A stretch of 57,380 bases of DNA from Clostridia bacterium (lineage in GTDB: Bacteria; Bacillota; Clostridia; Oscillospirales; CAG-272), in NCBI GenBank assembly GCA_017428635.1, contig JAFRQK010000014.1:1-57380 (forward strand), written 5' to 3'. Both the position numbers and the translations under genes were made by a program. Below, in pieces: positions 17,955-40,658 of the stretch (its first letter is position 1; the number at the start of each line of letters is the position of its first letter). Under the pieces are notes generated by a model. The model was given only the letters and a program-made list of their open reading frames with translations. It made no database searches and was not told the DNA's origin.

Positions 17955-17985
17955 ATCGTGTACAAAAGAATATTTTTGTGAATTC

Positions 17986-18074
17986 GGAGAAGTACTCAAG
18001 TTGGCCGAAGAGGCGCCCCTGCTAAGGGTGTAGGTCGGGTAACCGGCGCGAGAGTTCAAATCTCTCCTTCTCCG
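17986..18074 (+). tRNA. tRNA-Ser (GCT)
   Basis: Class II tRNA with a long variable arm. GGAGAAG (17986-17992) pairs with CTTCTCC (18067-18073), discriminator G18074; the T-arm is GAGAG-TTCAAAT-CTCTC and the anticodon loop CTGCTAA gives GCT (serine). CCA is not encoded. Its 3' end forms the left arm of a large hairpin with the following repeat. Confidence 0.97.
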
Positions 18075-18345
18075 AAAAGGAAGGACGCATCCGCGTCCTT
18101 TTCCTTTTCGGAGAAGGAGCGATCGCGCCGGGCACCGGCGCGGGTGTTATCGCCTCCCCGCCGCCGGGGGCGGGCCGAGGGGAGGCGATAACGCTGCCGC
18201 GGTCGAAATCGCGCGCCGCTCCAAGGCGCCGATGCGATTTCGGGCACCGCAAAGGGGGTGCGTCTTCTCTTGCGATAACCGCTGTCTTCACCGGATAACC
18301 CCTTCAGGACGCGCATGCGTCCTTTTCCTTTTTCAGGGAAATCTT
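18064..18345. repeat. tRNA-tail-flanked GC-rich element, copy 1
   Basis: Non-coding repeat directly after tRNA-Ser. Left edge: the tRNA 3' end, a GGACGC/GCGTCC hairpin, then the tRNA 3' end again in inverted order (CGGAGAAGGAG at 18109-18119). The core has several GC-rich inverted repeats (for example GTTATCGCCTCCCC near 18146 with GGGGAGGCGATAAC near 18179) and a 40-nt block (18213-18252) identical to one in copy 2. Right edge: GCTGTCTTCA, GGATAAC, a second GGACGC/GCGTCC hairpin and a degenerate tRNA-tail-like stretch. It ends about 58 nt before the DUF262 gene promoter. The tRNA-proximal hairpin probably also terminates the tRNA transcript. Confidence 0.8.
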
Positions 18346-18402
18346 TGAAAATAATAATCATCTGTATTATTCAGTCGAGAAACGGCGTAATTGCTCAAAA
18401 TC

Positions 18403-18431
18403 TTGAAAATAAAGGGGTAATATGATATAAT
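18403..18431 (+). promoter_or_regulatory. promoter of the DUF262 gene
   Basis: TTGAAA (18403-18408), a 17-bp spacer and a consensus TATAAT (18426-18431). The leader is about 100 nt long and AT-rich. Confidence 0.8.
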
Positions 18432-18540
18432 ATGCGTGCATTTGAAAAATAAGTATGATGCGTGTTAAGCAAGTACTGCGATACTTAATTTCTAGAACGT
18501 CAGTTGTTGACATCCTTTTCATTCAGCTGGAGGATCACTA

Positions 18541-20444
18541 TGGCAAACACTTGGAAACTAGAGTCTTTTAAGCCTGCCCAAATCAAACAAAACATGGATA
18601 CCGGAGTGTTCAAGGTTCCTAGATATCAAAGAGGGATAGTGTGGTCTGAAACTCAAAAAGCGGACTTAATTGACACAATAAAAAAGGGGTTGCCGTTCGG
18701 TTCTCTTTTGTTGTATAAAGAACCTTCTGGAAAATATCAAATCATTGACGGCCTTCAAAGGGTTACAACCGTTTTTGGCTTTGTTGAAAACCCAGCACAG
18801 TTTTTTAATGATGATGATATAGACAATACTGTAATTCCTGAGATAGTGAGAAAAATAAATGTCGCTGGATCCCAGACAATTATTGCAGAGAAGGTCAATT
18901 CATCTCTAATTGATTGGGTTAAGCATTGCCATACACTTGATGCCGTTATTGGCATGCAGTTTTACGAATTTGGAGAAATAATTGCCAAAGAGTTCCCAAC
19001 CTGTCTTGGCAAAGAAGGGGAAATAGGGCGTCTAATTCAGCCAATGCTAAAAGCATTTCAACAGACTTGTTATACTATCAATGACATCAATATTCCAGCT
19101 ATTGTTATTGAGGGTGATCCAGATCTGTTGCCTGTTCTTTTTGAGCGCATAAACTCTAAAGGAACTCAATTATCAAAATACCAAATCTATGCTGCTTCAT
19201 GGAACACAGATGAATATTGTATCTCTGACAACCTCGTTAAAATTGTTATTGCGAATCGCGATCGATACGATAGCATGCTTGGCGGAATGACGAACATTGA
19301 TGATTATGATTCCGTGGCATTTCTAAATGAAAAAGTGTTGAATACATACGAAATCGCCTTCGGTTTCGGGAAAATGCTATGTGATAGTTATCCTCATCTT
19401 TTTGGCACAGCGAAAGAACAGACACAGGTTGATAGTGTAGGATTCACGCTTATAAATATCTGTCTCGGACTAAAAAACAAAGACGCTCATAAAATGAGCA
19501 GTAAGCTTAAGGAGTTGATTGGCAACTCAAATATAAACATTTTTCTCACCAAAATCATCGAGTGCGTAAAGTTTGTAGATGGTCGTATAGGAAAGTACAA
19601 TACTTTTAAGTCAAATTCACGACCTGATTCAGGTAAAAATCCCCTGCATACAGAGTTTCAGATATGTTCTTTAATTGCTTCAGTATTTCTTATGAAATAT
19701 GCAGATATCACATTAGATTCAAAAGAAAATATTGTTGAATATAAAATCCATTTAGACTATATAAATAATGATAAATGGTCCAAAAGTACTGAAGCTGCCT
19801 TCAAGAAAAATGCGCCGAAAATATACATTATGGAGATCTTGCAAAGAAGATGGTCAGGAACTGGCGATAAAAAAATGGACCAAGTTCTCATAACTCCTAA
19901 CTATTATACTAGGGACGTCACACGTTTCGAGTTCTCAAACAACCTCGACAACTGGTTTGCGAACTTGAATAATGAAAGGTCGGAAATTGGAAAAGTTGCT
20001 GCGGCAAAGGAACCAGAACTTTTGATGCTTGCACTGGTATACTTAATGAACAACTTTTCCGCCTTGAATCATCTAGATGATTCAAAATTTGATATAGAAC
20101 ATCTTGCAACCAAACAGTTGATGAAAGAGAAACTAATCAGTAAATATAACGGAGATCTTAGGTTGCCTATAAGTTCATTTGGCAATCTTTGCCTTTTACC
20201 AGAATATGACAATCGTAGTAAAGGAAAGAAAACAATATATCAGGATGCTGAATATTTGAAAAAAACCAAAAAGACTATTTCATACATAGAAGATAACTAC
20301 AGTTTCACAAAAAAAGAAGATTTGGACTGGCTTAGTGATAAACAATTATCAGCTGATGAGTTCAAAGAAGCGTATTTCAATTTTATTCAAAATAGATTCG
20401 ATTATATGAAAAATATTATTTTAGACCATTTTGATAGAATCTAG
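18541..20444 (+). CDS. DUF262 / HNH (DUF1524-like) GmrSD-type nuclease
   Basis: A 634-residue protein of the GmrSD-like group, whose characterised members are type IV restriction enzymes against modified phage DNA. The N-terminal DUF262 part has VPRYQRGIVWSE near residue 27, and IIDGLQRVTT near 69 (the DGQQR-like nucleotide-binding motif, here DGLQR) and a later FERINSKGTQLSKYQI segment near 200. The C-terminal part has FDIEHLATKQ near 515 and GNLCLLPEYDNRSKGKKT near 545, a His/Asn pattern of the HNH nuclease in DUF1524. The start ATG at 18541 follows GGAGG. Codon use is strongly A/T-ending, unlike its GC-rich neighbours, and the gene lies exactly between two repeat copies, which suggests horizontal acquisition. 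Defence is the likely role; its target is unknown. Confidence 0.85.
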
Positions 20445-20504
20445 TTGAATGGTGACTAATTCAAAGACTGTCTCTGATATGCAAAGAACAATCTTTATGC
20501 TAAA

Positions 20505-20770
20505 GAAGGACGCGAATGCGTCCTTTTCCTTTTCGGAGAAGGAGAGATCGCGCCGGGAACCGGCGGGGGCGGGCTCGCCGAGCGCCGCCGGTGGCGGATG
20601 AAGCGAGGCGAGACCGGGGCAGCGGTCGAAATCGCGGCGCCGCTCCAAGGCGCCGATGCGATTTCGGGCACCGCAACCCGGGGAGACTCTTACAGCTTTC
20701 GCTGTCTTCATCAGATAACTAAAGCACGCTACAGGCGTGCTTTCCCTTTGGCTGGAGAGATTTGAACTCC
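20505..20770. repeat. tRNA-tail-flanked GC-rich element, copy 2
   Basis: Second copy of the repeat after tRNA-Ser, following the DUF262 gene. Left: a GGACGC/GCGTCC hairpin, then CGGAGAAGGAGAGAT (20534-20548), which is the exact reverse complement of the last 15 nt of tRNA-Ser (18060-18074). The core shares a 40-nt block (20637-20676) with copy 1 but differs in between. Right: GCTGTCTTCATCAGATAAC, a hairpin at about 20721-20742 and then, on the minus strand, AGTTCAAATCTCTCCAGCC (20768-20750), which looks like a tRNA T-arm plus acceptor 3' half. Minus-strand open frames over both copies begin alike but are not kept in frame, so the repeat is not coding. It and the short AT-rich lead-in fill the gap from 20445 to the next gene. 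Confidence 0.8.
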
Positions 20771-20838
20771 CCCCCCTTGAAAAACCTGATCATATTTGCT
20801 ATATTTATCCCAACGAAATCATCCCACCGGAGGTCCCC

Positions 20839-21351
20839 ATGTCCCCATCCCTTCGCCTTTATATCCCCCGTCCGGAGGACGGCGCGTTTTATATCAAAAT
20901 GATGACCGATCCCGCCACTATGGCGTACAACGCGCCGTGGTTCCCGCCCGACGGGTGCATCCCGGACCCGGAGTCCGAATGGGACGATCTGATCTCGGGG
21001 TGGATCGGCCGCGAGCCAGAGCGTTTCTACGCCTATCTTCAACGCATATCCGACGGCGCTTTCGTCGGCGACGTCAACTACCACAAAAAAGCCGAAGGCA
21101 GATACGACATGGGCATCGTCGTGTACGCTCCCGAGCGCGGAAAAGGATACGCCAAAGAGGGGCTCCGCCTGCTCGCGGACCGCGCGTTCGGGATCGACGG
21201 CATACCCCGCCTCAGCAACGACTTTGAGACGACGCGCGGCGCCGCGTATCACGTCCACAAAGCGGTCGGCTTCCGCGAGGTCGGAATATCCGACGGGATC
21301 GTTCACCTCGAACTCACGCGGGAGGAATACCTCCGTTCGCTCGCAGACTGA
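20839..21351 (+). CDS. GNAT family N-acetyltransferase
   Basis: A 170-residue cytoplasmic acetyltransferase of the GNAT fold, closest in style to the RimJ/RimL group. After the LRLYIPRPEDG start strand, the acetyl-CoA loop is seen as VVYAPERGKGYAKEGLRLLADRAF near residue 94 (R-G-K-G-Y), followed by the ETTRGAAYHVHKAVGFREVG helix-strand of motif B near 133. The substrate is unknown. ATG at 20839 is supported by a GGAGG site; upstream in-frame codons run into the tRNA-tail remnant. It is monocistronic, ending at the terminator at 21368-21397. Confidence 0.85.
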   Translation: MSPSLRLYIPRPEDGAFYIKMMTDPATMAYNAPWFPPDGCIPDPESEWDDLISGWIGREPERFYAYLQRISDGAFVGDVNYHKKAEGRYDMGIVVYAPERGKGYAKEGLRLLADRAFGIDGIPRLSNDFETTRGAAYHVHKAVGFREVGISDGIVHLELTREEYLRSLAD

Positions 21352-21367
21352 ACCCAAAATAAGCAAA

Positions 21368-21397
21368 AAAAGAACGCCCCGTTCGGGGCGTTCTTTT
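21368..21397. terminator. bidirectional terminator between GNAT gene and opp operon
   Basis: AAAAGAACGCCCC (21368-21380) pairs with GGGGCGTTCTTTT (21385-21397). A/T runs on both sides let it serve the rightward GNAT gene and the leftward opp operon. Confidence 0.88.
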
Positions 21398-21743
21398 ACC
21401 ATATAAGAACCATCAAAAGAATAATCAGTCCGAGGCCGAGGCCGAACGCCAAAGCGATCAGAAGCGCCGCTCCGAGCGCGCCGCCTATAAACCAGCGCTT
21501 CTCTTCGCGCGTCATATCGACGCCGCTTCTTTCCGGCTTTCCGCCGAGCTCGTCCGTGATCTCCCGGCGGCGTTTTCTGTCGCCGCGAAGACCGATGACC
21601 GACCCAAGGAACGACGCGTGTCCCTCGATGCCGCTCATATCGGCGACGGTGCGTCCGTCGTCCTCGACAACTTCTTTTTCCTTTTCAGTGATCTCATTTT
21701 CGGCGCTCTCCATGCGGAGGGCGTCTTCGTTTTTATCACTCAT
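21396..21743 (-). CDS. small membrane protein at the end of the opp operon
   Basis: A 115-residue protein: an acidic N-terminal half (EITEKEKEVVEDDGRTV), a basic stretch (RGDRKRRREI), and one C-terminal membrane helix (about residues 88-114, ALGAALLIALAFGLGLGLIILL). I do not recognise the family. The ATG at 21743 overlaps the end of oppF by 8 nt, so it is coupled to the transporter; it might be an accessory subunit. A tail-anchored topology with the charged part inside is likely. Confidence 0.65.
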   Translation of the reverse strand: MSDKNEDALRMESAENEITEKEKEVVEDDGRTVADMSGIEGHASFLGSVIGLRGDRKRRREITDELGGKPERSGVDMTREEKRWFIGGALGAALLIALAFGLGLGLIILLMVLIW

Positions 21744-22833
21744 CGCTCTTCGCCGCCTCTTCGGTCGCCGCCGGCTTTTCTTCGTGCACGACTTCCTTTT
21801 CGTTGTCGTACAGATGGCAGACGACAAAGTGGCCGGGTTCGATCTCCTTCTGAACGGGCGCTTCCGTCTTGCAGCATTCCATGCAGTTCGCACAGCGGGT
21901 GTGGAACTTGCACCCCGCAGGCGGATTCGCCGGAGACGGGATCGATCCCTCAAGAACGATGCGGTTCATCTTGTAAGTCGGATCCGGCACCGGGATAGCC
22001 GAGAACAAAGCCTTGGTGTACGGGTGCAGCGGATTCTTGAATATGTCCTCGGTAGAGCCGTACTCGACGAGGTTTCCGAGGTACATGACGCCGACCGCGT
22101 CGGAGATGTGCTCGACGACGGACAGGTCGTGGGAAATGAACAAAAAGGTGAGTTTGAACTGCTTCTGAAGATCGGCGAGCAGGTTGATTATCTGCGCCTG
22201 GATCGACACGTCGAGCGCCGAGACCGGCTCGTCGCAGACGACGAATTCGGGGTTGAGCGCAAGAGCGCGTGCGATGCAGATACGCTGTCTCTGACCGCCG
22301 GAAAACTCGTGCGGATATCTGTCCTTGTGGAACGGCTGAAGGCCGCACTTGTCCATGATATCGTCGATGTAGTCGTCGAATTCGTCGGGGGGGACGAGTT
22401 TATGCTCGCGCACCGCTTCGCCGATTATTTCGCCGACGGGAAGACGCGGCGAAAGAGATGAGAACGGATCCTGGAAGATGATCTGCATCTTCGTTCTCAG
22501 GTCGCGCATCTCCTTCGGGGTTTTGTCGAAGACCTCCTCGCCGTTGAAAAGCACCTGACCGGCGGTCTTGGTGGGGTAAAGACGGAGGATCGTTCTGCCG
22601 ACCGTCGTCTTGCCGCATCCGGACTCTCCGACCAGACCCATCGTGGTACCGCGCTTGAGGTTGAACGTGACTCCGTCGACCGCGCGGACCCAACCGACGG
22701 TCTTGGAGATCATACCGCTCTTGATCGGGAAGTGCTTTTTCAGCGAGTTGACCATCAGGATATACTGAGGATCGTACTGAATGGGGGTGATGCCCCGGGA
22801 TTCCGCTGCGCTGTGCTTATCCGCCATCGTCAT
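21736..22833 (-). CDS. oppF: oligopeptide ABC transporter ATP-binding protein
   Basis: A 365-residue cytoplasmic ATPase. Walker A is [12 protein letters not shown] near residue 68, the Q-loop [11 protein letters not shown] near 112, the ABC signature FSGGQRQR near 177 and Walker [13 protein letters not shown] near 198; the H-loop is FISHDLSVV near 230. The C-terminal oligopeptide/dipeptide extension carries a Cys cluster ([14 protein letters not shown] near 314), which in this family can hold an iron-sulfur centre. The ATG overlaps the oppD stop as ATGA, with GGAGGG upstream. Confidence 0.92.
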
Positions 22834-23978
22834 TCACCCTCCTTCTTGTCGTAATACCTGTAGCAGGTGACCGAGTGAGTGGGCGAGATACTGACCTCGC
22901 ACGGGTACTCCCCGTCGCATCCGTCGACGCACATCTCGCAGCGGTCCTTGAAATAGCAGTAGTTGGGCATGTTGACCGGGTTCGGCACCTTTCCGGGGAT
23001 CGAATAAAGCTTATCGACCTTCTTGCCGACGACCGGTTTGGACGCCATCAGTCCGATCGTGTACGGATGACACGGATTTGCGAAGATCTCCTCCGCCGTT
23101 CCCCTCTCGACGATGCGGCCCGCGTACATAACGACGACGTAATCCGCCATCTCGGCGATAACGCCGAGGTCGTGGGTGATGAGCATGATGGAAGAGTTGA
23201 TGTTGTCCTTCAGCCTGCGGAGCAGATCGAGGATCTGCGCCTGGATCGTAACGTCGAGAGCCGTCGTGGGCTCGTCGGCGATGATGAGCTTGGGGTTGCA
23301 CGCGAGCGCCATCGCGATCATAACTCTCTGACGCATACCGCCGGAAAGCTCGTGCGGGAACATCTTATAGACGCCCTCGGAGTTCGCGATACCGACCATC
23401 TCGAGAAGTTCGATCGTGCGGGCTTTGATCTGCTCTGCGTTCAGCTTGTGACCCTCGTGAAGCTCGAGGACCTCGTCGACCTGCGCGCCGATACGGAACA
23501 CCGGATTGAGGCTCGTCATCGGCTCCTGGAAGATCATAGAGATATAGTTGCCTCTGATCTGCTGCATCTTCTGCTGAGGAGTTCTGACGATATCGTACGC
23601 TTTGTCTCCGAGATTAAGACGGATCTCGCCTTCGACGATCTGACCCTGCGGACGCTGCAGAAGCTGCATGATCGAGAGCGACGTAACGCTCTTTCCGCAT
23701 CCGGATTCACCGACGATACCGATCGTTTTGCCCTGCGGGACGTCGAAGGAGATCCCGTCGACGGCGGCGACCGTACCCACGTCGGTAAAGAAACACGTCT
23801 TCAGATTTTCGATCTCAAGGGAATTGTTCGGATCCTTCATCTGAGTCAGGAAGGCCGATTCGGGTACGTTCTTTTTCTTGCGCTTCTTTTCGAGCGCGTT
23901 CGTTATCTTTTTATTGCTTCTCGATATTCTCCGCGATTCTTTCGCCGAGAGATATCCTTCCGATCTTTTCTTTGCCAT
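22830..23978 (-). CDS. oppD: oligopeptide ABC transporter ATP-binding protein
   Basis: A 382-residue ATPase pairing with OppF. The ABC domain starts after an unusual basic N-terminal stretch of about 50 residues ([15 protein letters not shown]). Walker A is [13 protein letters not shown] near residue 92, the signature LSGGMRQR near 213 and Walker [13 protein letters not shown] near 234, with an ITHDLGVI H-loop. The C-terminal peptide-transporter extension includes the Cys group [15 protein letters not shown] near 342. The site GGAGGGGG precedes ATG 23978, 13 nt after oppC. Confidence 0.92.
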
Positions 23979-23991
23979 CTTCTCCCCCTCC

Positions 23992-25659: not shown

Positions 25660-25675
25660 GTCTTCGCACCTCCCG

Positions 25676-26662: not shown

Positions 26663-26788
26663 TGAAACTCCCTCCGCTGTGAGATTGAATTTACTTAATG
26701 GGTCAGTTGCCTAAAGATAAAACAAAAGAAACGCCGGGATTCCGCCGCTGTATCCTCATTCCCGCGGAATAGCCTGCGATTCATAAAT

Positions 26789-26880
26789 CGGCTCCGCCGG
26801 AAACCTTCCGTTTCGTCGGAGCCGACTTATCAAGCGCAGGGTCGCCCCTGCCCCGGGACGCTTCGGGCGCCCCGGGGCAG
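26789..26880 (-). promoter_or_regulatory. two strong hairpins between oppA and oppB
   Basis: Read on the minus strand, the oppA stop is followed by a 26880-26848 hairpin (CTGCCCCGGG with CCCGGGGCAG) and then a 26824-26789 hairpin (CGGCTCCG with CGGAGCCG, extended by GTTTC/GAAAC pairs). Neither has a T run, so they look like mRNA-stabilising or partial-attenuation structures that would raise the binding protein over the permeases. Confidence 0.6.
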
Positions 26881-26914
26881 CAGGTCGGTCGTTTTTAATT
26901 AGACGTTTACCCTA

Positions 26915-30607: not shown

Positions 30608-30687
30608 GATTTCCCCCGGTTTTAACATTAATTATTTAATAAACAGTTCCATATTCTCGGCTTTTCGTATCATCGCGTCACCCCGGC

Positions 30688-31830: not shown

Positions 31831-31864
31831 TTCAACACTCCCGGAATATATGATTTCGGGGATA

Positions 31865-31893
31865 ATTATACAGCATAAAGGCCGGGTTTGCAA
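31865..31893 (-). promoter_or_regulatory. promoter of the acyltransferase gene
   Basis: Minus strand: TTGCAA (31893-31888), a 17-bp spacer and TATAAT (31870-31865). Confidence 0.7.
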
Positions 31894-31928
31894 GCAAGAC
31901 GCTTTTGAAAAGCGCCGAAAAAAAGGTG

Positions 31929-31957
31929 TTGACAAAGAGAATCCGCCGTGATACAAT
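31929..31957 (+). promoter_or_regulatory. promoter of the tRNA-Thr/tRNA-Tyr pair
   Basis: TTGACA (31929-31934), a 17-bp spacer and TACAAT (31952-31957). Confidence 0.85.
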
Positions 31958-31995
31958 ATGTGAGTGTCCGGTGATGACCGGAGATATCGGACTGT

Positions 31996-32070
31996 GCTGG
32001 TGTGGCTCAATGGCAGAGCAGCTGATTTGTAATCAGCAGGTTGTTGGTTCGACTCCGATCACCAGCTCCA
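31996..32070 (+). tRNA. tRNA-Thr (TGT)
   Basis: GCTGGTG (31996-32002) pairs with CACCAGC (32060-32066), discriminator T, then CCA is encoded (32068-32070). The anticodon loop TTTGTAA gives TGT (threonine). The next tRNA starts at the very next base. Confidence 0.95.
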
Positions 32071-32152
32071 GGGGGAATTCCCGAGCGGCCAAAGGGGGCA
32101 GACTGTAAATCTGTTGTCACTGACTTCGGTGGTTCGAATCCACCTTCCCCCA
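32071..32152 (+). tRNA. tRNA-Tyr (GTA)
   Basis: Class II tRNA with a long variable arm: GGGGGAA (32071-32077) pairs with TTCCCCC (32145-32151), discriminator A. The anticodon loop CTGTAAA gives GTA (tyrosine). CCA is not encoded. Its T-arm stretch 32133-32147 recurs exactly at 40275-40289 in inverse orientation. Confidence 0.95.
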
Positions 32153-32153
32153 G

Positions 32154-32192
32154 AAAAGACTCATCTTTTGTCTACCAAAAGATGAGTCTTTT
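32154..32192 (+). terminator. terminator of the tRNA pair
   Basis: A 17-bp perfect stem, AAAAGACTCATCTTTTG (32154-32170) with its complement at 32176-32192, ending in T. It starts 2 nt after the tRNA. Confidence 0.85.
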
Positions 32193-32197
32193 CAACT

Positions 32198-32367
32198 AAA
32201 TCCACCCTTACAGGGTGGGTGAAATCCACGCAAGCGTGGATGAAATCGCTTCGCGATGAAATCCGCCTCGACGGCGGACGGGTGGATTTAATTTCATCTG
32301 ACGCAAAGCGGCAGATTTCATCCGAGGGCAAAGCCCGAGGATTTCACCGCGCCGTAGGCGCGATTTT
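32198..32367. repeat. hairpin array with GAAATC/GATTTCATC spacers
   Basis: At least seven short hairpins in a row (for example CCACGCAAGCGTGG, TCGCTTCGCGA, CCGCCTCGACGGCGG, CGCGCCGTAGGCGCG) are separated by a recurrent box read GATGAAATC in the left half and GATTTCATC in the right half. AAATCCACCC (32198-32207) and GGGTGGATTT (32280-32289) enclose the left half. It is non-coding and directly follows the tRNA terminator. It looks like a palindromic dispersed repeat; it is not a CRISPR, as repeats and spacers are not uniform. Confidence 0.75.
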
Positions 32368-32379
32368 ATTAGCCGGAAA

Positions 32380-33006
32380 ATGAGGTCCGCTCTCGGCGAG
32401 ACGGTCGATCTCAGTTACGTGCGGCAGAACGAACGAGGAGAGGGATAACGCTGGGAAAATATCAACGACGTGCTGTATCTCACCGATATCAACCTTTCGA
32501 CAGCGTCCGACTTCGGGATAAAGCTCCCGGCCGGCGCGACCGTCGTAGTCGAGGGCGACTGCCGCGTGGCGGCAAACAGATACACCGTCTCGTGCCTCGG
32601 TTCAGTAACGTTCAATGGAACGGGTAAACTCACCGTCACGGGCGGCGAGTGCGGGATGTATTTCTACAGTACGAACAGAGATCACAAGATCCTCTTTCTC
32701 GGCGGCGAGTACGCTGTGACAGGCGGCGAGACGGCGTAACGGAAGGCCCGTCCGATACGACTTTCTCACCCGAGGAGGCGTGTACGCGCGGTCAGGTCGT
32801 AACGTTCCTGTGGCGCGGCGGGCAAGCCTGAACCGCAGGCAGGGGAAAACCCGTTTGCCGACGTCGGGCAGGACGCGTTTTATTTCAAAGCCGTGACGTG
32901 GGCGGTCGAAAGCGAAGTTACGCTTGGAACATCGAAGACTGAGTCTTCGCCGGAGGAAGTCTGCACGAGAGGACAGACGGTCACGTTACTATACAGGGCA
33001 AAATGA
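32380..33006 (+). pseudogene. decayed SLH-domain surface protein (3' part)
   Basis: Remains of the C-terminal part of an exported protein. The first frame (32380-32739) has an in-frame stop at 32446-32448, then a beta-solenoid-like piece (SVTFNGTGKLTVTGG). A frameshift near 32735 leads to an SLH fragment (DTTFSPEEACTRGQVVTFLWR), which ends early at about 32829; after another shift a further SLH unit (NPFADVGQDAFYFKAVTWAVE onward, ending TRGQTVTLLYRAK) runs to a stop at 33004-33006. SLH domains anchor proteins to cell-wall glycans. No signal peptide or intact start is present. A terminator follows at 33015. Confidence 0.8.
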
Positions 33007-33014
33007 ATAAACAG

Positions 33015-33040
33015 GGAGACGCTGCGGCGTCTCCTTTTTT
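33015..33040 (+). terminator. terminator after the SLH pseudogene
   Basis: GGAGACGC (33015-33022) pairs with GCGTCTCC, followed by six T to 33040. Confidence 0.85.
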
Positions 33041-33157
33041 ATGAATCAACTCCGTAACGTTTATACCTTTATAACAAACGGTTTATTGTTTGCGCCTCGC
33101 AATCTTATTGTGCTGGCAAATTATATAATTTTTATTTTTGATATATCAAGAAATATG

Positions 33158-33186
33158 TTGTTTTCTACAAAAAGATGTGTTATAAT
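33158..33186 (+). promoter_or_regulatory. promoter of the giant surface protein
   Basis: TTGTTT (33158-33163), a 17-bp spacer and TATAAT (33181-33186) in an AT-rich stretch. It produces a leader of about 210 nt. Confidence 0.75.
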
Positions 33187-33226
33187 TAAAATGTCATATT
33201 ATATTTATACGTTTTACCCCTTTATT

Positions 33227-33368
33227 GGCATTTGAAGCGTGGCTTCCGAAAGATGGCGGAATCGCCTGAATGGGTGTCGCGGAGGTGATAGTGACAAAAC
33301 CGGGTCTAAACGAAAGAACACCCACGGGCGGACGCCTGAGAAAATTTTGATAAAGTCAGAAAAATGCA
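33227..33368 (+). ncRNA. possible structured leader RNA, class unknown
   Basis: Within the long leader of the next gene several stems can be drawn: GCATTT (33228-33233) with AAATGC (33362-33367) as a closing helix, GAAGC-GTG-GCTTC (33234-33246), GGCG-GAAT-CGCC (33255-33266), and TGGGTGT (33270-33276) with ACACCCA (33318-33324). The sequence is more GC-rich than its surroundings. I compared it from memory with c-di-GMP, cobalamin, SAM and TPP riboswitch consensus features and found no match. It could be a novel leader or chance pairing. Confidence 0.35.
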
Positions 33369-33402
33369 TTTAAACTTTTTTAAACTAAAAGGAGAGTAAA
33401 AA

Positions 33403-36400
33403 ATGAATCTGAGAAAAGTATTGTCATTCATAATCGTTCTTTGCATGTGTCTGCCGTTTATTCCGACGGCGGCGTTCGCAACGGGCGAAACTGTGATTGA
33501 AAATTATGACAGAGATGAGTTTACGGGTAATGACTCCACATATCCGGAAGGCGTTTCTGTTGACAACTACTGTGACGTCACTTTATCCGGTGGTACGTGG
33601 GGAGATATCTACGTACGCAGCGGATATTCTTTGACCATTGAGGGAACGTCCGCGTCTCCCGTTGTCATAAACGGCAAGATTTATTTCTCCGGCAATAAAC
33701 TTACGATTAACGGCAACGTGACGGTCAGCCAGGGAATTGAGATCAGAGATTATTCCTCCTGGAGCGATTGCCGGGTCAGTATTTACGGAGGTACGTTCGG
33801 CGATCCCTCGGACAGCAGCATTTCTTCCGTTATTTGTTCCGGGGAGGAATGGTATTACAGTTATCAAAGAAAAATCCAAATATCCGGCGGAGTTTTTTAC
33901 GGCGACATAGTAAAAGAAGAGAATTCACACTTCACTATCAAAGTCCTAGGCGGGACGTTCGGCACGGACATTGAGAATAACAACGACGTTGAATTCCTGA
34001 GCGTGGTGACTTTTGTTGACAACGGCGACGGAACTTATACCGTTCCGTTGCTTCCGGATATTTATCAGGATTCCAATGATCCCGACGTCTATCATATAAT
34101 CACCACTGACGGTTTTGCTGATTTCAGGGACAGCGTAAACGCAGGGAATACTTATGAAGGTAAGACCGTTCTTCTCAATGATGATATTGAATTACCAGAA
34201 GACGTAGAATGGGTCCCGATCGGGGTGAAGGACGACTCGGTCAAGGTATTCAAGGGTACTTTTGACGGGCAGGATTACTGTATCTCCGGCATCAATATCA
34301 CTGAAAGCGATCCTCAGTCGTATATCAAACGGTACCAAGCGTTGTTCGGATATACTCAGGGAGCAACGATCAGAAACTTAACGCTTGGAGGCGGAGGCAG
34401 GGCCTATGTTCAAGCACGGGAAGCAGCGGGCCTTGTTGCTTACATGGATGGCGGATTGATTGAGAATATCAGTAGTTATGCAGGGGTCAGCGGGAGTGAA
34501 ATTGCGGGCGGTATTGTCGCCGAAACTGCTGGAAATTGTACGATCAGAAACTGCACCTCAAGTAATGTTCAAACAGTGTTGCGTTATTCAAACGGAATTT
34601 ATATGGGAGGAATTGCGGGTGGTATCGTCGGCCTGGCGACCGGCGCCACCAAGGTTTTAGATTGCCAAGGCTACAGTATTAAAAATGGCGTCTACCTTGG
34701 CGGTATCGTTGGCAGTTTCATGAACGCAGAGACAGGCGCGGAGATCAGCAGATGTTCGGGTTATGATGTAAGTTGTTATATATCCGGCGCAGGTCTTGAT
34801 GATGCTGTAGGTGGAATCCTCGGTTATTGCGGACCTGCAAACAACGGGACTACGCTTGTGGTTTCCAACAATAAAACCGAGTCTTATTCCGGTATTGTAG
34901 GATACACCCATGCAGGTGGTATTGTCGGCGTTGCGGATGCGCCTGTTTCAATTACTGATAACATCAATTACTGTAATGTCAGATGCATTTCCGACGGTGA
35001 AACTTATCCTGCAGGGATCGTATCTTACGCCGGAGCCGGCTGTTACGTTTCCGGAAACGTCAACAACTATGTAATAACGGATAACCAACAGAGGACGTTT
35101 GTCGGAGAAGCGGATCCGGGCGCGACGATCGAAGGAGATAACGTCGTGTATTTAACAATAGAAACAGTCCAGGAATTTAAGGATTTTGCCGACGCGGTAA
35201 ATGCGGGAGAAACCTTTGAAATTCGCGACGTTTATCTTGAGGCTGATATTGATCTGAGCGAGCTGAACGGGCAGTGGACACCGATCGGTGAAGCGGGCAA
35301 TCCCGACAAGGTGTTCAAAGGTGTTTTCTACGGACAAGGTCACACTGTCAGCGGTCTCAGTATCAACGATCCGAGCGCGAGATATCAGGCTTTGTTCGGA
35401 TATGCTCAGGGCGCGAGAATAGAGTATTTGACCGTCGACGGCTCCGTCAGCGCTGCTGAAGCCGCGGGCGTTGTTGCCCAAATGGACGGCGGTTACATAG
35501 GAAATGTCACCAACAACGTTACGGTGACAGCTGCGAGCGTGGCGGGCGGTATCATCTGTTTGTCTGCCGGCGAGTTCACGATGTGGTACGGTTCAAACTA
35601 CGGTTCAGTCACTGTCAGCGGTTCGGGCGGCGCGGGCGGAATTATCGGCGCTGCAAATGACTCAACCAGAGCAAACTATTCCGATAATTACGGCGACGTC
35701 ACGGGTGCAAACAACGTCGGCGGAGGCATTGGTTATTTCGAAATTTCAGACGGTGACGGTTACGTATGGGGAATACATAATTACGGAAACGTTACGGCTA
35801 CGTCTGAAGAACCGGGGACGTGTGCCGGAGGAATTCTAGGCGCCTACAGTGACGCAAGCGTAAACGCAACGATTACTTTCCGCGACTGCTATAACTACTC
35901 GGCCGTCAGCGGATATGATTATGCCGGCGGTATAGTGGGCATTGCCGGAGCCCCCGCTGAAATCACTGATAATGGCAACTATGGCACTATTACGTGCAAC
36001 GCTTCTGCGGAGAGCGGCGTCGAATCATTCCCGTCCGGTATTGTCGCCAAAGTGGGTGTGGGAACGAAGGTTACTAACAACTGGAATGAAGGAGAACTTA
36101 TATCCGCGCAGGACGGCAATACGTATCAGATTATCGGCGACGACGGAGGATGTTTCTCTGAAAACAATATATACTATATAAATATCAACTCTTTAGAGGA
36201 TCTTGAGAATTTCCGAGACAGCGTCAACGCAGGTAACAGTTATTACGGTGTGGGCGTGAATCTGAACACGAACATCACGCTGACCGAACCGTGGATCCCA
36301 ATAGGATACAGTGAGTTAACGGATTTCGGATCGGATCCGACCGCAGATCTCAGTGCGACGCCGTACTTCGCGGGCATGTTCTACGGCAACGGTTATACGA

Positions 36401-39400
36401 TTTCCGGATTGAGCAACTACAGCGACTCGGCCGCGTACGATCCAGATAACGTAAACGGGGATAACGAGTACGTTTACGGTTTATTCGGCGTAGTCGGTAA
36501 CGGTGCAAGTATCAGTTACCTGAGCTTGGACGGCGTAGATATCGATACGACAAAGACGCAGGGCAAGACGGGCAATTCTGTCGGCGCGCTTGTCGGTTAC
36601 GCGTTCGGTGACTTCAGTATTTCCGGCATTAACGTTTCCGGCTCCGTCAAGGCTAACGACGCGGTAGGCGCGATCGTCGGCAGATGCGAGCAGGGCAACT
36701 TTACCGACGGTGTGTCTAGAGGCGTTTCAATATCCAGTTGTACCAGCGACGCGACCGTGACCGGAGGCGCAAACGCGGTCGGTACGACGAAGGCGGCGGG
36801 TCTGGTCGGGTATATCTCGGATAATAACAAGGGCAATTACGGTCTTACTTTCACTTATAACACGTTTACCGGAACGGTAAGCGGCGCGGCGTATAACGGA
36901 CTGTTTGCAACGTTTGACGGGACAATGTTCGAGCCCAGCGGCGACGACGCGGTGCTGGTCTCGACCGGAGATCACGCTGGAAACAGTTATTTCGGGTATG
37001 AAAACAAGTATAAAGATTTCAATTCGTTATTTAAGTTCTCGGACGACAACGCGGTAGTTATTATGGATGCTGTTATTCAGCATTTCATGTATTACGGTTA
37101 TGACTGGATGACTTGGTCGAATGTCTATTACGTTTATGACGCGCAAGGCCTTGCTGAATTCCGCGACAGCGTGAATGACGGAAACACTTACGCGGGTTAT
37201 ACGATCAAACTTCGCGATAACATTGACCTTTCCGAACTGAACGGGGCATGGACGCCTATCGGAACTCACGGATACAGAGAGAAAGACGCCGAAGGCAATC
37301 CCTGCACGTACTTTGCCGGAATATTTGACGGCGACGGTTATACCATCAGCGGTCTGACGGACGAAGGGTACGTCCCGGCGTATACGGACTCCAGCGGACG
37401 GTATGCGTACGGCCTGTTCGGCAGCACGTGCGGCGCTACAGTCAGGAACGTGACATTGACCGACGTCAGTATCAATGCGGCTAAAGGCGACTCTGTCGGC
37501 GCGCTCGTTGGATTCTCAGGAGGCGGTTTGACTGTTTCAAACTGCTCCGTCTCGGGATCGGTTGCCGGTCTTGACGCGGTAGGCGGTATTATCGGACGCG
37601 CGTACAATACTATTGACGGTGATCTGACTACGATTCAGGTCAACGACAATATAAACAACGCTGCGGTGAGCGTAACGACTACGGGTTCCGGTAAAGTCGC
37701 CGGCGTGATCGGTTACGTAACGTATTTCAGTTCCTGCAGTATTTACAATAACGTCAATAACGGCAACGTTACTATGAACGCAACAGGTTCCGGCAACTGC
37801 TTTGAAGCGGGCGTTGCGCTGTTCGGCGGCGATTTCAACGCCAACAGCACCGGGATTTATGATGATGAAGAATGGGGATATAATATCAACATTTCAGGCA
37901 ACACCAACAACGGCACGATCACGGCTCCGGTCGGATTCGCGGGAACCGGAGGAAGCCGGCTCGGATTCGGCGGCGGGATCTCTCAGGTCGCGGGCTGCGC
38001 AGGCTCTACCGTATACGGTTGCGTTACGGTCTATGACAACTATGCTAACGGCAGTATCGTTTCTACGGTAACGCCCGGATGGCTTTTCGACGAGACGCCG
38101 ATCGTGAATCTAGGTCAACAGTCTGCTGAACTCAGAGGAGGACTCTGGCATCTGTGGCTCGAAGCAAACGATTATTACGATTATGAAGGGGTGTACGGCA
38201 GACCTGCCAAGTTCTACAGAGACTATCCCTCTACGTACGACGGATGCAGCGTACAGTATGATTTCCTGTATCAGCTTGCCACGGCGAACGATGGGGATAC
38301 GGTAACGCTTCACGGCGACATCACGGTGGACAGCAAGATCAACATCACAAAGAACGTGACGATCGATCTCGGCGGTCACACCGTCACGGCGACCGGCTGG
38401 TACGCGTTCGATCTCGCGGGCGGCACGCTGAAGAACGGAACGGTTGATCTCGACGGTCAGAGCTGGGGTATCCAGGTCCGCGGCGAGACCACGTTCGAGA
38501 ACGTTGAAATCGTTAACGTTGTGAACAACGAACACGGCCAAATCGCGATCTACGCGTGGGCTCCTGCAACGGGCGAGAACTACGACGTAACGATTGAAAA
38601 CTCCTTGGACAAGAATATCGAAGGAAGATTTTACGTTGACAAGAAAGAAAGCGGAAAAGACGGAGACGTGAACTTCGTCGTCAAAGGCGGTACGTTCAAC
38701 GTAGACCCGACGGCTTATGTACCTGCCGGCTACGCCGTCCGAAACTACAACGGCACGTGGACGGTAGGCGAACCCGTCACGGTAACCTTCAATCTGAACG
38801 GCGGTTCGTATGAGTCAAGCACGGCCAACGTCGAGCGTACGATCATGAAGGGTGAAGCGATCACAGAACTCGTGCCCGAACCAACGAACGGAGAGTATAC
38901 GCTTGAAGGCTGGTATTCCGATACTCAGTTCAAAATGGCGTTTGACTTTAATTCTGCCGTTACCGGAGATATCACGCTGTACGCCTGCTGGATAGATTCG
39001 TCAGTCATAACCTGCACGACGTCGCTCAGTCTAAGGGACAGCATCGACGTAAATATCTACATAAGCAACATTCCGGGTAATACGAGCGCGAGCGGATACT
39101 ACGTCATGTATTCCAAGGATAACGTCAACTGGGAACGCGGAGAATTCACGGACGCGAATCGCGTAAAGGCAGGGAAGTACGTATTCTCGATTCCGTTTGC
39201 CGCCAACCAGGTCACGGGCAAGGTGTACTTGAGGGTATATGACGATACGGATCAGGTCGTCAAAGAGATAATGGGCGGCAGCGGATACTCGATCAAAGAT
39301 TACTGCGACTACATAGTCGACAATTCGTCGGACGCCAAATTGAGAAATCTTTGTAAAGCCCTTATCTCATACGGGTACTACGCGCAGGTGAAGTTCCCAG

Positions 39401-39885
39401 CAACTGCTTCGGGATGGACTGACGACGTCCGCTACACGGATACTATCAACGCCACAATCAGTAGTTTTGACGGCACGGACGATCTGAACAGCAACTACAG
39501 CGCAAACACAACGTACGCCGATCCTGTTACCGGCGCAAAAGCATCGCTAGAGCTTAAATCCAGGACGGAGCTGAATTTCTACCTGTACGGCGTCGAGGAC
39601 GCGGCGGTAACGGTTACTGTGAACGGAGAGGCTTATTCTGCAGCGAACGTTATTGTCGAGCCGGCGTCGAGGGATAACGAGACGAGATGCCGCGTAAAGA
39701 TCAAAGGACTGAATACCGTCGACCTCACGATGAAGATCGTTCTGACCAGCGGCGGGACAGAAATCGAGTACTCGCCGATGACATACATAAGGAGCGCGTT
39801 GAACGGAAGTGACGAAGCAAACAGGAACGTGTGCAAAGCACTGTACAACTTCGTCATGGCGGCAAAGACTTATTTCGTCTGCTGA
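33403..39885 (+). CDS. giant secreted beta-solenoid surface protein
   Basis: A 2160-residue exported protein; a signal peptide ends near AFA-TGE (residue 27). An initial parallel-beta region (28-220) is followed by four large repeats beginning near residues 229, 582, 922 and 1240. Each opens with an FRDSVNAGNTY-like helix, a W-x-PIG strand and an F-x-G-x-F-DG-GYTISGL strand, then GLUG-like beta-helix turns rich in GGIVG and VGALVG. A shorter solenoid (near 1617-1780), an InlB B-repeat/Flg_new type domain (about 1789-1870, GWYSD, ITLYACW) and a 290-residue C-terminal domain follow. There is no LPXTG or SLH anchor. It probably binds host or plant glycans at the surface. AAAGGAGAG precedes ATG, and the leader may be structured. 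Confidence 0.85.
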   Translation: MNLRKVLSFIIVLCMCLPFIPTAAFATGETVIENYDRDEFTGNDSTYPEGVSVDNYCDVTLSGGTWGDIYVRSGYSLTIEGTSASPVVINGKIYFSGNKLTINGNVTVSQGIEIRDYSSWSDCRVSIYGGTFGDPSDSSISSVICSGEEWYYSYQRKIQISGGVFYGDIVKEENSHFTIKVLGGTFGTDIENNNDVEFLSVVTFVDNGDGTYTVPLLPDIYQDSNDPDVYHIITTDGFADFRDSVNAGNTYEGKTVLLNDDIELPEDVEWVPIGVKDDSVKVFKGTFDGQDYCISGINITESDPQSYIKRYQALFGYTQGATIRNLTLGGGGRAYVQAREAAGLVAYMDGGLIENISSYAGVSGSEIAGGIVAETAGNCTIRNCTSSNVQTVLRYSNGIYMGGIAGGIVGLATGATKVLDCQGYSIKNGVYLGGIVGSFMNAETGAEISRCSGYDVSCYISGAGLDDAVGGILGYCGPANNGTTLVVSNNKTESYSGIVGYTHAGGIVGVADAPVSITDNINYCNVRCISDGETYPAGIVSYAGAGCYVSGNVNNYVITDNQQRTFVGEADPGATIEGDNVVYLTIETVQEFKDFADAVNAGETFEIRDVYLEADIDLSELNGQWTPIGEAGNPDKVFKGVFYGQGHTVSGLSINDPSARYQALFGYAQGARIEYLTVDGSVSAAEAAGVVAQMDGGYIGNVTNNVTVTAASVAGGIICLSAGEFTMWYGSNYGSVTVSGSGGAGGIIGAANDSTRANYSDNYGDVTGANNVGGGIGYFEISDGDGYVWGIHNYGNVTATSEEPGTCAGGILGAYSDASVNATITFRDCYNYSAVSGYDYAGGIVGIAGAPAEITDNGNYGTITCNASAESGVESFPSGIVAKVGVGTKVTNNWNEGELISAQDGNTYQIIGDDGGCFSENNIYYININSLEDLENFRDSVNAGNSYYGVGVNLNTNITLTEPWIPIGYSELTDFGSDPTADLSATPYFAGMFYGNGYTISGLSNYSDSAAYDPDNVNGDNEYVYGLFGVVGNGASISYLSLDGVDIDTTKTQGKTGNSVGALVGYAFGDFSISGINVSGSVKANDAVGAIVGRCEQGNFTDGVSRGVSISSCTSDATVTGGANAVGTTKAAGLVGYISDNNKGNYGLTFTYNTFTGTVSGAAYNGLFATFDGTMFEPSGDDAVLVSTGDHAGNSYFGYENKYKDFNSLFKFSDDNAVVIMDAVIQHFMYYGYDWMTWSNVYYVYDAQGLAEFRDSVNDGNTYAGYTIKLRDNIDLSELNGAWTPIGTHGYREKDAEGNPCTYFAGIFDGDGYTISGLTDEGYVPAYTDSSGRYAYGLFGSTCGATVRNVTLTDVSINAAKGDSVGALVGFSGGGLTVSNCSVSGSVAGLDAVGGIIGRAYNTIDGDLTTIQVNDNINNAAVSVTTTGSGKVAGVIGYVTYFSSCSIYNNVNNGNVTMNATGSGNCFEAGVALFGGDFNANSTGIYDDEEWGYNINISGNTNNGTITAPVGFAGTGGSRLGFGGGISQVAGCAGSTVYGCVTVYDNYANGSIVSTVTPGWLFDETPIVNLGQQSAELRGGLWHLWLEANDYYDYEGVYGRPAKFYRDYPSTYDGCSVQYDFLYQLATANDGDTVTLHGDITVDSKINITKNVTIDLGGHTVTATGWYAFDLAGGTLKNGTVDLDGQSWGIQVRGETTFENVEIVNVVNNEHGQIAIYAWAPATGENYDVTIENSLDKNIEGRFYVDKKESGKDGDVNFVVKGGTFNVDPTAYVPAGYAVRNYNGTWTVGEPVTVTFNLNGGSYESSTANVERTIMKGEAITELVPEPTNGEYTLEGWYSDTQFKMAFDFNSAVTGDITLYACWIDSSVITCTTSLSLRDSIDVNIYISNIPGNTSASGYYVMYSKDNVNWERGEFTDANRVKAGKYVFSIPFAANQVTGKVYLRVYDDTDQVVKEIMGGSGYSIKDYCDYIVDNSSDAKLRNLCKALISYGYYAQVKFPATASGWTDDVRYTDTINATISSFDGTDDLNSNYSANTTYADPVTGAKASLELKSRTELNFYLYGVEDAAVTVTVNGEAYSAANVIVEPASRDNETRCRVKIKGLNTVDLTMKIVLTSGGTEIEYSPMTYIRSALNGSDEANRNVCKALYNFVMAAKTYFVC

Positions 39886-39960
39886 TGACGGTCGGATCGG
39901 TCAACGTTTTTCCGGCGTGTTCGATCCCGCCGAATAAGGCGATCATCATAACTGAAAAAT

Positions 39961-39998
39961 GCGGGCGCTTCGATTCGAAGCGCCCGCTTATTTTTTTA
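39961..39998 (+). terminator. terminator of the giant surface protein gene
   Basis: GCGGGCGCTTCGA (39961 on) pairs with TCGAAGCGCCCGC (to 39988), followed by TTATTTTTTT. Confidence 0.9.
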
Positions 39999-40150
39999 TT
40001 GCTTTGAAATAAGAATTATGATATATTGCCTAGTTAGAGTTTTTATCATAAAGGAGAACTAAAAATTGGCTTGATGCCGGACAAGGCAAATAATGATTCC
40101 AAAGGCATAGTAAGAGGTGACCTTCTGATAAGGAGGGTCACCTCTTTTTT
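39999..40150 (+). ncRNA. possible small transcript with own promoter and terminator
   Basis: A promoter-like pair TTGCTT (39999-40004), 17 bp, TATATT (40022-40027) precedes about 115 nt that end in a strong terminator: AGAGGTGACC (40113-40122) with GGTCACCTCT (40136-40145), then T's. An AAGGAGA near 40051 is followed by only a 2-codon TTG frame; a TTG at 40071 opens a frame that runs through the terminator and is not convincing. So a small RNA, or a remnant, is more likely than a gene. Confidence 0.35.
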
Positions 40151-40233
40151 GTTGCCAGAATCAACCGATCGCTTTCCCGCGGTACATTTAGCTTTTTTAC
40201 CTTTAGAACGGTACATTTTGTGTGTTTCTGGCA

Positions 40234-40658
40234 GTGAAAAAAAGAAGCACCTACGGGTGCTTCTTTTTTTCACCGAAGGTGGATTCGAAGGGGAGCGGTA
40301 GTGAATGACAGCCCGGGTGGTGCGGACAGATCTACTGTACCGCAATCGGTCGCAACTGCTGTCCGCTCGAATTTTGCGCAAAAGCGCAAAATTCCAAAAT
40401 ACGGATCAAACTTTTTCAGAGCCGCGACCGGGCCTGCTCGACAACTAACAGTATCTTTGAAAATCGACGCTCTGCGGCGATTTTGGGCAAACAGGCAGTT
40501 CACGAACGATTTCGCAAAACAAGGACCTGTTTGCACAGGGCGAATCCACAGTAAAGGGAAACCGTGAACGCGGTTTCCCTTTACTGCCTTCACGGGTGGT
40601 GTACATTTTACTTTTTTCTGCACCGCAGTGACGCAATAAAAAATAGGAAGGTGGATTC
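40234..40658. repeat. tRNA-Tyr-tail-flanked hairpin element (copy 3 of the architecture)
   Basis: Non-coding element bounded by the 12-nt direct repeat GAAGGTGGATTC (40275-40286 and 40647-40658). On the minus strand the left copy is part of TTCGAATCCACCTTC, identical for 15 nt to the tRNA-Tyr T-arm/acceptor at 32133-32147. It is followed, on that strand, by an 18-bp perfect hairpin (40273-40234, GTGAAAAAAAGAAGCACC arms) like a terminator. The core contains perfect hairpins at 40369-40394 (GAATTTTGCGC arms) and 40549-40586 (16-bp arms, CAGTAAAGGGAAACCG) and inverted GCGGACAG/CTGTCCGC arms (40322-40329, 40359-40366). The stretch from 40151 to 40233 between it and the small transcript holds two GGTACATTT repeats and nothing else I recognise. 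Confidence 0.75.

Follow-up and report, generated by a model that had tools for sequence, protein, structure and literature searches.

Putative gene-less folded insertion elements fitted to tRNA genes in a Clostridia genome and its relatives

Introduction

What kind of element places pieces of a tRNA gene, hairpin terminators and a hairpin core behind that same tRNA gene, and does so at more than one tRNA? The question is raised by a 57,380-nucleotide stretch of DNA (contig JAFRQK010000014.1 of assembly GCA_017428635.1, forward strand; hereafter the window, meaning the whole stretch) from a Clostridia bacterium of the Oscillospirales, in which three such elements lie behind tRNA-Ser(gct) and tRNA-Tyr(gta) and next to two nuclease genes. 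The original prediction, made from the letters alone, offered two explanations, a non-autonomous mobile family moved in trans or nuclease-assisted spread through tRNA 3' ends. The three-element layout of tRNA ends, terminators and cores is real, as tRNA calls, repeats and counts of T-arm copies confirm with some corrections. We consider it very probable that a genuine tRNA-anchored insertion family underlies this layout, and we give an even chance to the more specific proposal that these are gene-less folded insertion elements that target the T-loop of tRNA genes and of at least one tmRNA gene. In what follows G000 is the genome of the window, G001, G002, G007 and so on are the other genomes compared, C-numbers are contigs (apart from C56, the T-loop nucleotide) and L-numbers are sequence pieces.

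Results

The surroundings of the 40 tRNA genes called by model in G000 were read one by one and gave what we term the type A element, in which a terminator, a mirrored tRNA end, an inverted T-arm half, hairpins and a direct T-arm half follow each other in this order, often with a 7-nt insert near ATTGAAA before the inverted half. The multi-hairpin core lies ~38-60 bp behind various tRNA genes, and the unit reads as the tRNA 3' end from C56 with terminator and inverted T-arm half, joined to the hairpin core and followed by another T-arm half.

The arms of these elements follow the tRNA behind which they stand. In 22 elements the mirrored arm matched its own tRNA at a mean of 11.55 of 12 positions and the direct arm at 9.64 of 10, while the same arms scored 9.19 of 12 and 7.19 of 10 against tRNAs with a different T-arm half (422 comparisons), and none of 2000 permutations was as good as the match to the own tRNA. 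The two T-arm halves pair as a closing stem that is fitted to the particular host tRNA. This goes beyond the original prediction, since the tails become the closing stem of a folded element fitted to each T-arm half, with the T-loop as its boundary. Counts over whole genomes agree, once tRNAs too close to a contig end or without the T-loop pattern are dropped (leaving 35 of 40 in G000, 33 of 36 in G002, 32 of 37 in G004 and 36 of 37 in G005). An inverted copy of the own half, with at least 10 of 12 matches and within 140 bp, lies downstream of 9/35 tRNAs in G000 and 9/33 in G002, and of 0/32 and 0/36 in two further genus mates, G004 and G005, with upstream controls of 0/34, 0/33, 0/27 and 1/33, respectively. 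Because T-arm halves resemble one another, the control with unlike tRNAs was high in this 12-nt test (8.2% in G000, 8.0% in G002). In a stricter 14-nt test the values for G000, G002, G004 and G005 were 10/34, 11/32, 0/31 and 1/36 for own halves, 6/684, 4/598, 0/572 and 2/868 for unlike tRNAs, and 2/32, 0/31, 0/25 and 0/33 upstream. Direct repeats that begin at C56 and extend for 8-68 bp (at most 2 mismatches) were found in all 28 elements with a tRNA call; a 29th element had no such call.

A presence/absence comparison, of the kind that the original prediction had proposed for strains, yielded two sites that are reciprocally empty and filled between G000 and its genus mate G002 and are joined at the T-loop. 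At tRNA-Leu(tag), which is filled in G000 with 172 bp extra and direct repeats of 46 bp (C56 through the terminator), the G002 gene runs straight into a flank that aligns with G000 over 1.1 kb. At tRNA-Gln(ttg) it is G002 that is filled and G000 that is empty, with the flank aligning over 1.2 kb. In the cases read, the second tRNA copy begins at or next to C56. The units also form tandem arrays, in one case with swapped cores, as three units with cores X1, X2 and X1 stand at Ser(gga) of G054 and the resident tail with another terminator lies at the far end. At Ser(tga) of G007 a palindrome runs from the T-loop to the mirrored T-loop, and 77 bp are identical on both flanks of one core.

One identical core occurs at sites with different arms within one genome. 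In G002 the same core (43-nt and 16-nt blocks exact) is present at Thr(ggt), at a site with Val-like arms on contig C119 (a contig end, with no tRNA seen) and at Gln(ttg), where the copy is split by a nested insert, and the arms differ at each of the three. In G007, three cores that resemble one another at 89-92% stand at Ser(gga), Glu(ctc) and Leu(gag), each with its own arm set. Gene conversion among existing elements would account for the G007 case, and the Gln(ttg) case is harder to explain in this way unless G000 lost a copy precisely. The original prediction had also named, as grounds for giving it up, cores found only as read-through sequence after intact tRNA genes, with no excess of nucleases nearby. 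On nucleases the outcome went against the prediction (see below), but on read-through it did not, because the reciprocal empty and filled sites and the identical core at sites of several tRNA types are more than read-through would give. That one family keeps its layout on different tRNAs is supported, and the best reading of it is a non-autonomous mobile family. At Thr(ggt) (L086) and Ser(cga) (L121) of G000, palindromes of tRNA end, terminator and mirrored end occur with no type A core directly behind them, and these are possible pre-insertion sites.

The cores covary in the manner expected of a folded strand. An alignment of 11 type A elements gives a consensus of 40 pairs, 23 of which have changes on both sides, and none of 500 shuffles did as well in covariation score or in the fraction of cells paired. 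When the partners were slid by 1-3 columns, pairing fell from 92% to 37-48%. For an alignment of 27 sequences the corresponding values were 95% vs 32-52%, and again no shuffle of 500 reached the covariation score. Core 2 of the window has matches in 23 of 59 genomes and core 3 in 13 of 59, own genome included. A core hit is contained in 19 of 20 fetched pieces, 11 of which have an adjoining tRNA (Ser, Tyr, Thr, Leu or Pro). The covariance model R1 has matches in 32 of 79 genomes (own included) and, at a stricter limit on a sample of the class, in 7 of 291, where weak matches (36-47 bits) were kept only when the tRNA preceding them was accompanied by its own T-arm half. In four of the six class genomes other than G000 a tRNA is followed by its own T-arm half, and two of the four (G319 and G120) have hits 141 bp apart.

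G000 itself has 17 R1 matches, eight of them above 100 bits. Seven of these lie 38-56 bp directly behind tRNAs, and the eighth (C41:59963) has arms like tRNA-Leu(cag), 9.6 kb away from that gene. At E 0.05 there is no R1 match inside the window, because cores 1 and 2 belong to a different core type and nested inserts interrupt core 3; an unsplit Tyr copy of the core 3 type in G001 (L069) scores 49.7 bits. Among the matches listed, the weak ones of G000 and of G001/G002 (~33-43 bits) are inside another dispersed repeat, away from tRNAs. The P2 hairpin module likewise occurs within a dispersed repeat (CCTTCCCCTTGAGGG ... GATGAGGTGA) away from tRNAs (L157-L161, L171-L175).

A single-hairpin pattern gave 24 matches in 22 public stretches titled as Clostridia, Oscillospiraceae, Clostridiales and Ruminococcus metagenome-assembled genomes, many from ruminants; some seem to derive from genomes already compared here (G001, G002, G007 and G050) and hence are not independent. 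A tRNA lies within 400 bp upstream of 18 of the 24, all 18 with a mirrored half matching at 9-12 of 12 positions. One further match is 71 bp behind a tmRNA gene, where the mirrored arm follows the tmRNA T-arm and 21 bp identical to the tmRNA 3' end from C56 close the element. Another is near an smpB-like gene (read by eye) with no tmRNA called there, and the remaining four have no tRNA within their 3-393 bp of left context. The pattern had no match in viral contigs, nor did one unit searched in phages and plasmids, and a phage or plasmid origin was rejected on these grounds. An Rfam scan, which covered the window and not the type A copies on other contigs, found at gathering threshold only tRNAs, a THF riboswitch (positions 4481-4585, 85.8 bits) and a Gut-1 RNA, and no family on a core.

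The enzyme that might move the elements was sought in 17 genomes. PF01797 (Y1 transposases) has no hits in G000, G006, G007, G011, G050 and G054, all of which have R1 matches; PF07508 (large serine recombinases) has none in G001, G002, G006 and G007 but 5 and 8 in G004 and G005, both element-free; and PF00589 (tyrosine recombinases) has none in G006 and G007. As these families do not track the elements in the 17 genomes, Y1 transposases of the RAYT type, tyrosine recombinases and large serine recombinases were rejected as a common mover. The one PF00589 hit of four that was typed, on the tRNA-Ser(cga) contig of G000, scores as XerC (1e-67), with the integron integrase model at 1.6e-24, below that model's cut-off. 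The element ends pair as in integron attC sites, but their sequence follows the tRNA T-arm half, and attC box triplets were not established. Among the features of integrative and conjugative elements (ICE), integrative and mobilizable elements (IME) and cis-mobilizable elements (CIME), direct repeats of the tRNA 3' end around the unit are present, and a dedicated recombinase, either within the unit or tracking it in the genome, was not found. A CcrB-family integrase was seen beside one element only, at Leu(cag) of G000.

Reverse transcriptases were compared in 13 genomes, with G003 left out. RVT_1 hits are present in G000, G001, G002, G006, G007 and G011, the element-carrying genus members tested. 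Those of G000, G007 and G006 score as UG26 (1e-159 to 1e-165) by hidden Markov model (HMM), while those of G001, G002 and G011 were assigned by motif or partner gene and not by HMM score. The partner gene product of G007 and G011 scores as RTasCOG2852, and G002, which has the most element hits, retains only a 234-aa open frame of the UG26 enzyme. RVT_1 gave no hit in G004, G008 and G010, and the reverse transcriptases of the element-free G005 and G009 were judged from their YADD to be of group II type. Xer identity to G000 is 78-95% in three testable carriers vs 60-66% in five non-carriers, and because the testable carriers form one close group by this measure, the association of UG26 with the elements is nearly a single contrast. 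The co-occurrence of a UG26 reverse transcriptase with the elements, which is confined to this genus, is therefore a weak lead. A small partner gene stands beside the UG26-type reverse transcriptase in most loci (L392, L396, L393, L394, L397, L398, L399).

The features of the two window sites are listed in Table 1. At the tRNA-Ser site, positions 18060-18082 are complementary to 20526-20548 at 100% and to 18101-18123 at 96%, which is why the minus strand at cores 1 and 2 carries the tRNA-Ser 3' end. These two cores are GC-rich and ~220 bp long, with the DUF262 gene standing between them, and 18077-18299 and 20502-20719 are direct repeats with blocks of 85%, 81%, 100% and 90%. The Ser and Tyr origin of the tails stands as first proposed, and the tail at 20750-20768 that had been left without a source is also from tRNA-Ser, as 20752-20767 on the minus strand fits its T-arm half at 14 of 16 positions. 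In copy 1, parts of which had been called degenerate, the mirrored acceptor end is near-perfect and the T-arm half is decayed. At the tRNA-Tyr site, the inverted T-arm half recurs at 40646-40658 at the end of repeat R, which is also present between genes at tRNA-Tyr of G001 and G007 and on contigs of G002 and G011.

Table 1. Features of the tRNA-Ser and tRNA-Tyr sites in the window
Feature	Position	Strand	Basis
tRNA-Ser(gct), anchor of the first site	17985-18075	+	ARAGORN
Copied tail, T-loop C56 to 3' end of tRNA-Ser	18057-18075	+	read from sequence
Two-sided terminator hairpin	18076-18108	.	inverted repeats
Mirror of tRNA-Ser acceptor end; adjoining T-arm half decayed	18109-18123	-	inverted repeat I3
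Core 1; aligns unbroken with the lone core behind tRNA-Ser of G002	18124-18300	-	
Unit 1, second terminator-like hairpin, then decayed mirror	18306-18332	.	repeat family D5
AT-rich cargo: DUF262 / GmrSD_N protein, NsnA-like; missing at the G002 site	18504-20444	+	
Unit 2 terminator hairpin	20502-20533	.	D2 and D5
23-nt mirror of tRNA-Ser 3' end, 100%	20526-20548	-	inverted repeat I1
Core 2; hairpin type seen again behind other tRNAs of relatives	20549-20719	-	
Outer terminator hairpin	20722-20750	.	read from sequence
Outer inverted T-arm half of tRNA-Ser	20752-20771	-	
tRNA-Thr(tgt)	31996-32070	+	model call
tRNA-Tyr(gta), anchor of the second site	32071-32152	+	model call
~8 kb from tRNA-Tyr to its element: Gut-1 RNA, 2160-aa protein; absent in G002	32153-40232	+	
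Terminator hairpin beside core 3	40234-40273	.	
Inverted tRNA-Tyr T-arm half, ends at TTCGAA	40275-40289	-	
Core 3: type A frame broken up by nested hairpin inserts	40290-40540	-	
Direct tRNA-Tyr T-arm half (CGAATCCAC)	40541-40549	+	read from sequence
Terminator hairpin	40550-40586	.	
~65-bp repeat R, closing with inverted Tyr tail	40596-40661	-	
AT-rich cargo: GIY-YIG protein, UzuA defence family	40735-41610	+	

Several hairpins accompany these sites. The Gut-1 RNA (32193-32267, 52.3 bits) is immediately behind tRNA-Tyr, and G007 has a similar stretch behind its tRNA-Tyr, so that this orphan may itself belong to the hairpin repeats that trail tRNAs. Within hairpins of type A cores (window 40310-40440; L112, L167, L181) lies a nested hairpin element (TGCGGACAG ... 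CTGTCCGC), so that palindromes are inserted into palindromes, and another hairpin (GGGACGGTTCTATGTCT ... AGACACAGAACCGTCCC) occurs close to cassette ends in several genomes (window 41640-41700; L069, L077, L076).

The gene content of both sites differs between relatives. Contig C60 of G002 aligns piecewise to the window at 76-90%, and there tRNA-Tyr adjoins core 3, and thus the ~8 kb that lie behind tRNA-Tyr in the window are absent, and a single core without the DUF262 gene stands behind tRNA-Ser. From this alignment, the Ser and Tyr sites of G002 read as empty sites for cargo. Another G002 contig carries the gene that comes after the GIY-YIG gene in the window, and its R copies are instead accompanied by genes for a phosphodiester glycosidase (by Pfam) and for a protein whose translation, read by eye, resembles an acetyltransferase. 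In both G001 and G007 an XRE-type gene lies between R copies and the preceding content differs; G001 and G002 share a 607-bp piece at 98% identity. Since the content at the Tyr site varies in this way, it is a site of gene turnover.

The two window cargo proteins contain GmrSD_N (DUF262) and GIY-YIG domains according to Pfam, as the original prediction had it, and the HNH domain that it added to the former is absent. By PADLOC models the GIY-YIG protein is UzuA (3.6e-48) and the DUF262 protein is nearest to NsnA (8.4e-16), and hence both look like anti-phage cargo and not like homing enzymes. In G000 a 9.6-kb island separates tRNA-Leu(cag) from its element and encodes Eco57I-like and N6/N4 methyltransferases, a HARE-HTH protein and a CcrB-like large serine recombinase (L335 2450-3916; L337). 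The island is read as restriction-modification cargo at a tolerated site and, like the DUF262 and UzuA genes, as anti-phage. Neighbors were surveyed for the 17 of 22 type A elements with at least 1 kb of downstream sequence (the other five have <400 bp) by Pfam-scanning one frame per element, among the largest within 2.5 kb. There were no DNA nucleases among the 17; 13 had a family, including one HepT-like ribonuclease, and four had none. The families include solute-binding protein, GTPase, ABC ATPase, histidine kinase, sigma factors, helix-turn-helix (HTH) proteins, LigT, phosphoribosyltransferase and DUF4097. An excess of nucleases near the elements is therefore not supported.

Discussion

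We propose that only the core moves and that the arms are rebuilt from the target, a mechanism that in our estimate could equally well prove right or wrong. The core would insert by way of a single-stranded or cruciform form of the T-arm and terminator palindrome, duplication or fold-back copying of the target would supply the tRNA-specific arms, such that tRNA function would be kept, and the enzyme would act in trans. At a few tRNAs the tolerated site would also take gene cargo, some of it anti-phage, and would thus serve as a landing site. The extended form of this proposal, in which the element has neither a target sequence nor genes, the closing stem is rebuilt from each host tRNA, the arrays are integron-like landing sites and UG26 is perhaps the mover, is tentative and as a whole somewhat doubtful.

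Several results weigh against such movement. Eight of the 19 fetched pieces with core 2 or 3 hits have no tRNA nearby, most of the compared genomes are draft assemblies, and in the 27-sequence alignment two of five measures fall within the shuffles (double-change pairs in 47/500, further pair types in 398/500). In 18 of 28 elements the second tRNA copy and the tRNA have no more than 8-14 bp in common, the neighbor genes are mostly ordinary, which makes cargo the exception, and the lack of tracking by the three transposase and recombinase families leaves the proposed trans-acting enzyme without a common candidate among them. Mean core identity is 0.694 within genomes (n=56) vs 0.706 for the same tRNA across genomes (n=25) and 0.664 in all other pairs (n=172); as cores are no closer within a genome, many copies are old and inherited, and this average similarity speaks against frequent recent spread. 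In addition, gene conversion between existing elements could mimic movement and precise loss by recombination between direct repeats could create sites that appear empty.

Other explanations were weighed as well. One of them, which we consider rather unlikely, is that the units are tRNA-specific and att-flanked, in the manner of cis-mobilizable elements or integron cassettes, and have old arms; a recombinase acting in trans, of the tyrosine or the CcrB-type serine kind, would excise each unit and insert it entire at a T-loop, and gene conversion would account for alike cores at different tRNAs. Consistent with this are the direct repeats that start at C56 and reach towards or beyond the tRNA 3' end, unit-borne terminators unlike the resident one (Gln(ttg), and Leu(cag) in L313), the array with swapped cores at Ser(gga) of G054, the CcrB-like recombinase of the Leu(cag) island, the likeness of the folded ends to integron attC sites, and a T-loop point that is the same as the one used, with a CcrB-type integrase, in the Dehalococcoides ssrA islands. 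However, large serine recombinases are missing from four genomes of the comparison and present in two element-free ones, G006 and G007 have no tyrosine recombinase hit and the only one typed is Xer-like, and fixed tRNA-specific units are hard to reconcile with a core that recurs at a tRNA whose counterpart in the mate is empty. We think it less probable still that there is no real mobility at all, and that palindromes and tandem units arose at terminators through slippage and fold-back copying, were spread through homologous recombination and gene conversion, and were lost precisely between direct repeats. This would fit the palindromes around terminators, two of which (Thr(ggt) and Ser(cga) of G000) have no core behind, the 8-68 bp direct repeats and the failure to find an enzyme, but transfer between sites is needed to explain why homologous folded cores stand behind many tRNAs and a tmRNA in several families, and why a single core in G002 has three types of arm.

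The two explanations that name an enzyme from the neighborhood or the genus fare worse. Retrotransposition, in which the UG26 reverse transcriptase and its COG2852-type partner would copy a core transcript into a nicked T-loop with the tRNA end as primer or target, is quite improbable. It draws on the RVT_1 hits in all six element-carrying genus members tested, the UG26 scores in three of them, the RTasCOG2852 partner in G007 and G011, and the group II type or absence of reverse transcriptases in the five element-free or hit-free genomes named above. The association is nevertheless close to one contrast, G050 and G054 carry elements without an RVT_1 hit, the genome richest in hits keeps only a fragment of the gene, the G000 partner protein fits no family, and no R1 match is near the four reverse transcriptase loci searched. 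Homing assisted by the DUF262 and GIY-YIG nucleases, the second explanation of the original prediction, is highly improbable. Both genes do abut cores in the window, but their products match anti-phage families, none of the 17 neighbors elsewhere is a DNA nuclease and the content at the Tyr site varies between genomes, and homing by these proteins was rejected on the basis of the anti-phage matches and the neighbor survey.

Islands and phages classically land at tRNA genes, and the tRNA end that any one of them carries is normally that of a single fixed tRNA. In the accretion of ICE, IME and CIME, tandem att-flanked units accumulate behind a tRNA gene and their cargo turns over; the present units are likewise in tandem behind tRNAs with cargo turnover, but are ~140-230 bp long and without integrase or transfer genes. 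Integron cassette arrays have a fixed anchor, and the ends of the attC inverted repeat pair around variable hairpins. Anchor and paired ends are shared by the present elements, but here the anchor is the tRNA T-loop, and no integron integrase was seen, with one of the four tyrosine recombinase hits of G000 typed. Repetitive extragenic palindromes (REP), bacterial interspersed mosaic elements (BIME) and palindromes linked to REP-associated tyrosine transposases (RAYT) are gene-less hairpin repeats in many copies that are moved in trans, and they differ in that the present family has a fixed target, a closing stem fitted to that target and no tracking by PF01797. The 178-bp tandem repeats of Escherichia coli tyrT, with the rtT RNA, lie behind a tRNA gene and each contain the tRNA 3' end but, unlike the present family, are at one locus, and we know of no family of folded cores on many tRNAs among repeats of the tyrT type. 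The closest known system appears to be the Dehalococcoides ssrA islands, for which the published account (PMC3146451) describes the same T-loop point and a CcrB-type integrase, a gene whose like is also in one G000 island. Those islands are gene-bearing and confined to one gene (ssrA), whereas the present elements are mostly gene-less, folded and found at many tRNAs, with arms fitted to the tRNA and no tracking integrase. A prophage attachment site that includes the T-loop is described in a further source (PMC2647930). In the literature searched, which lay outside subscription journals and bioRxiv, we found no named family of folded gene-less units whose ends follow the host tRNA.

If the proposed rebuilding of the arms is correct, ends that are fitted afresh to each tRNA would represent a new solution to the problem of inserting harmlessly into essential genes, because a closing stem rebuilt from the host tRNA would allow one core to colonize many tRNAs without harm. 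The elements may also account for the gene turnover at some tRNA flanks, and they provide a concrete, though still weak, lead on the function of the UG26 reverse transcriptases.

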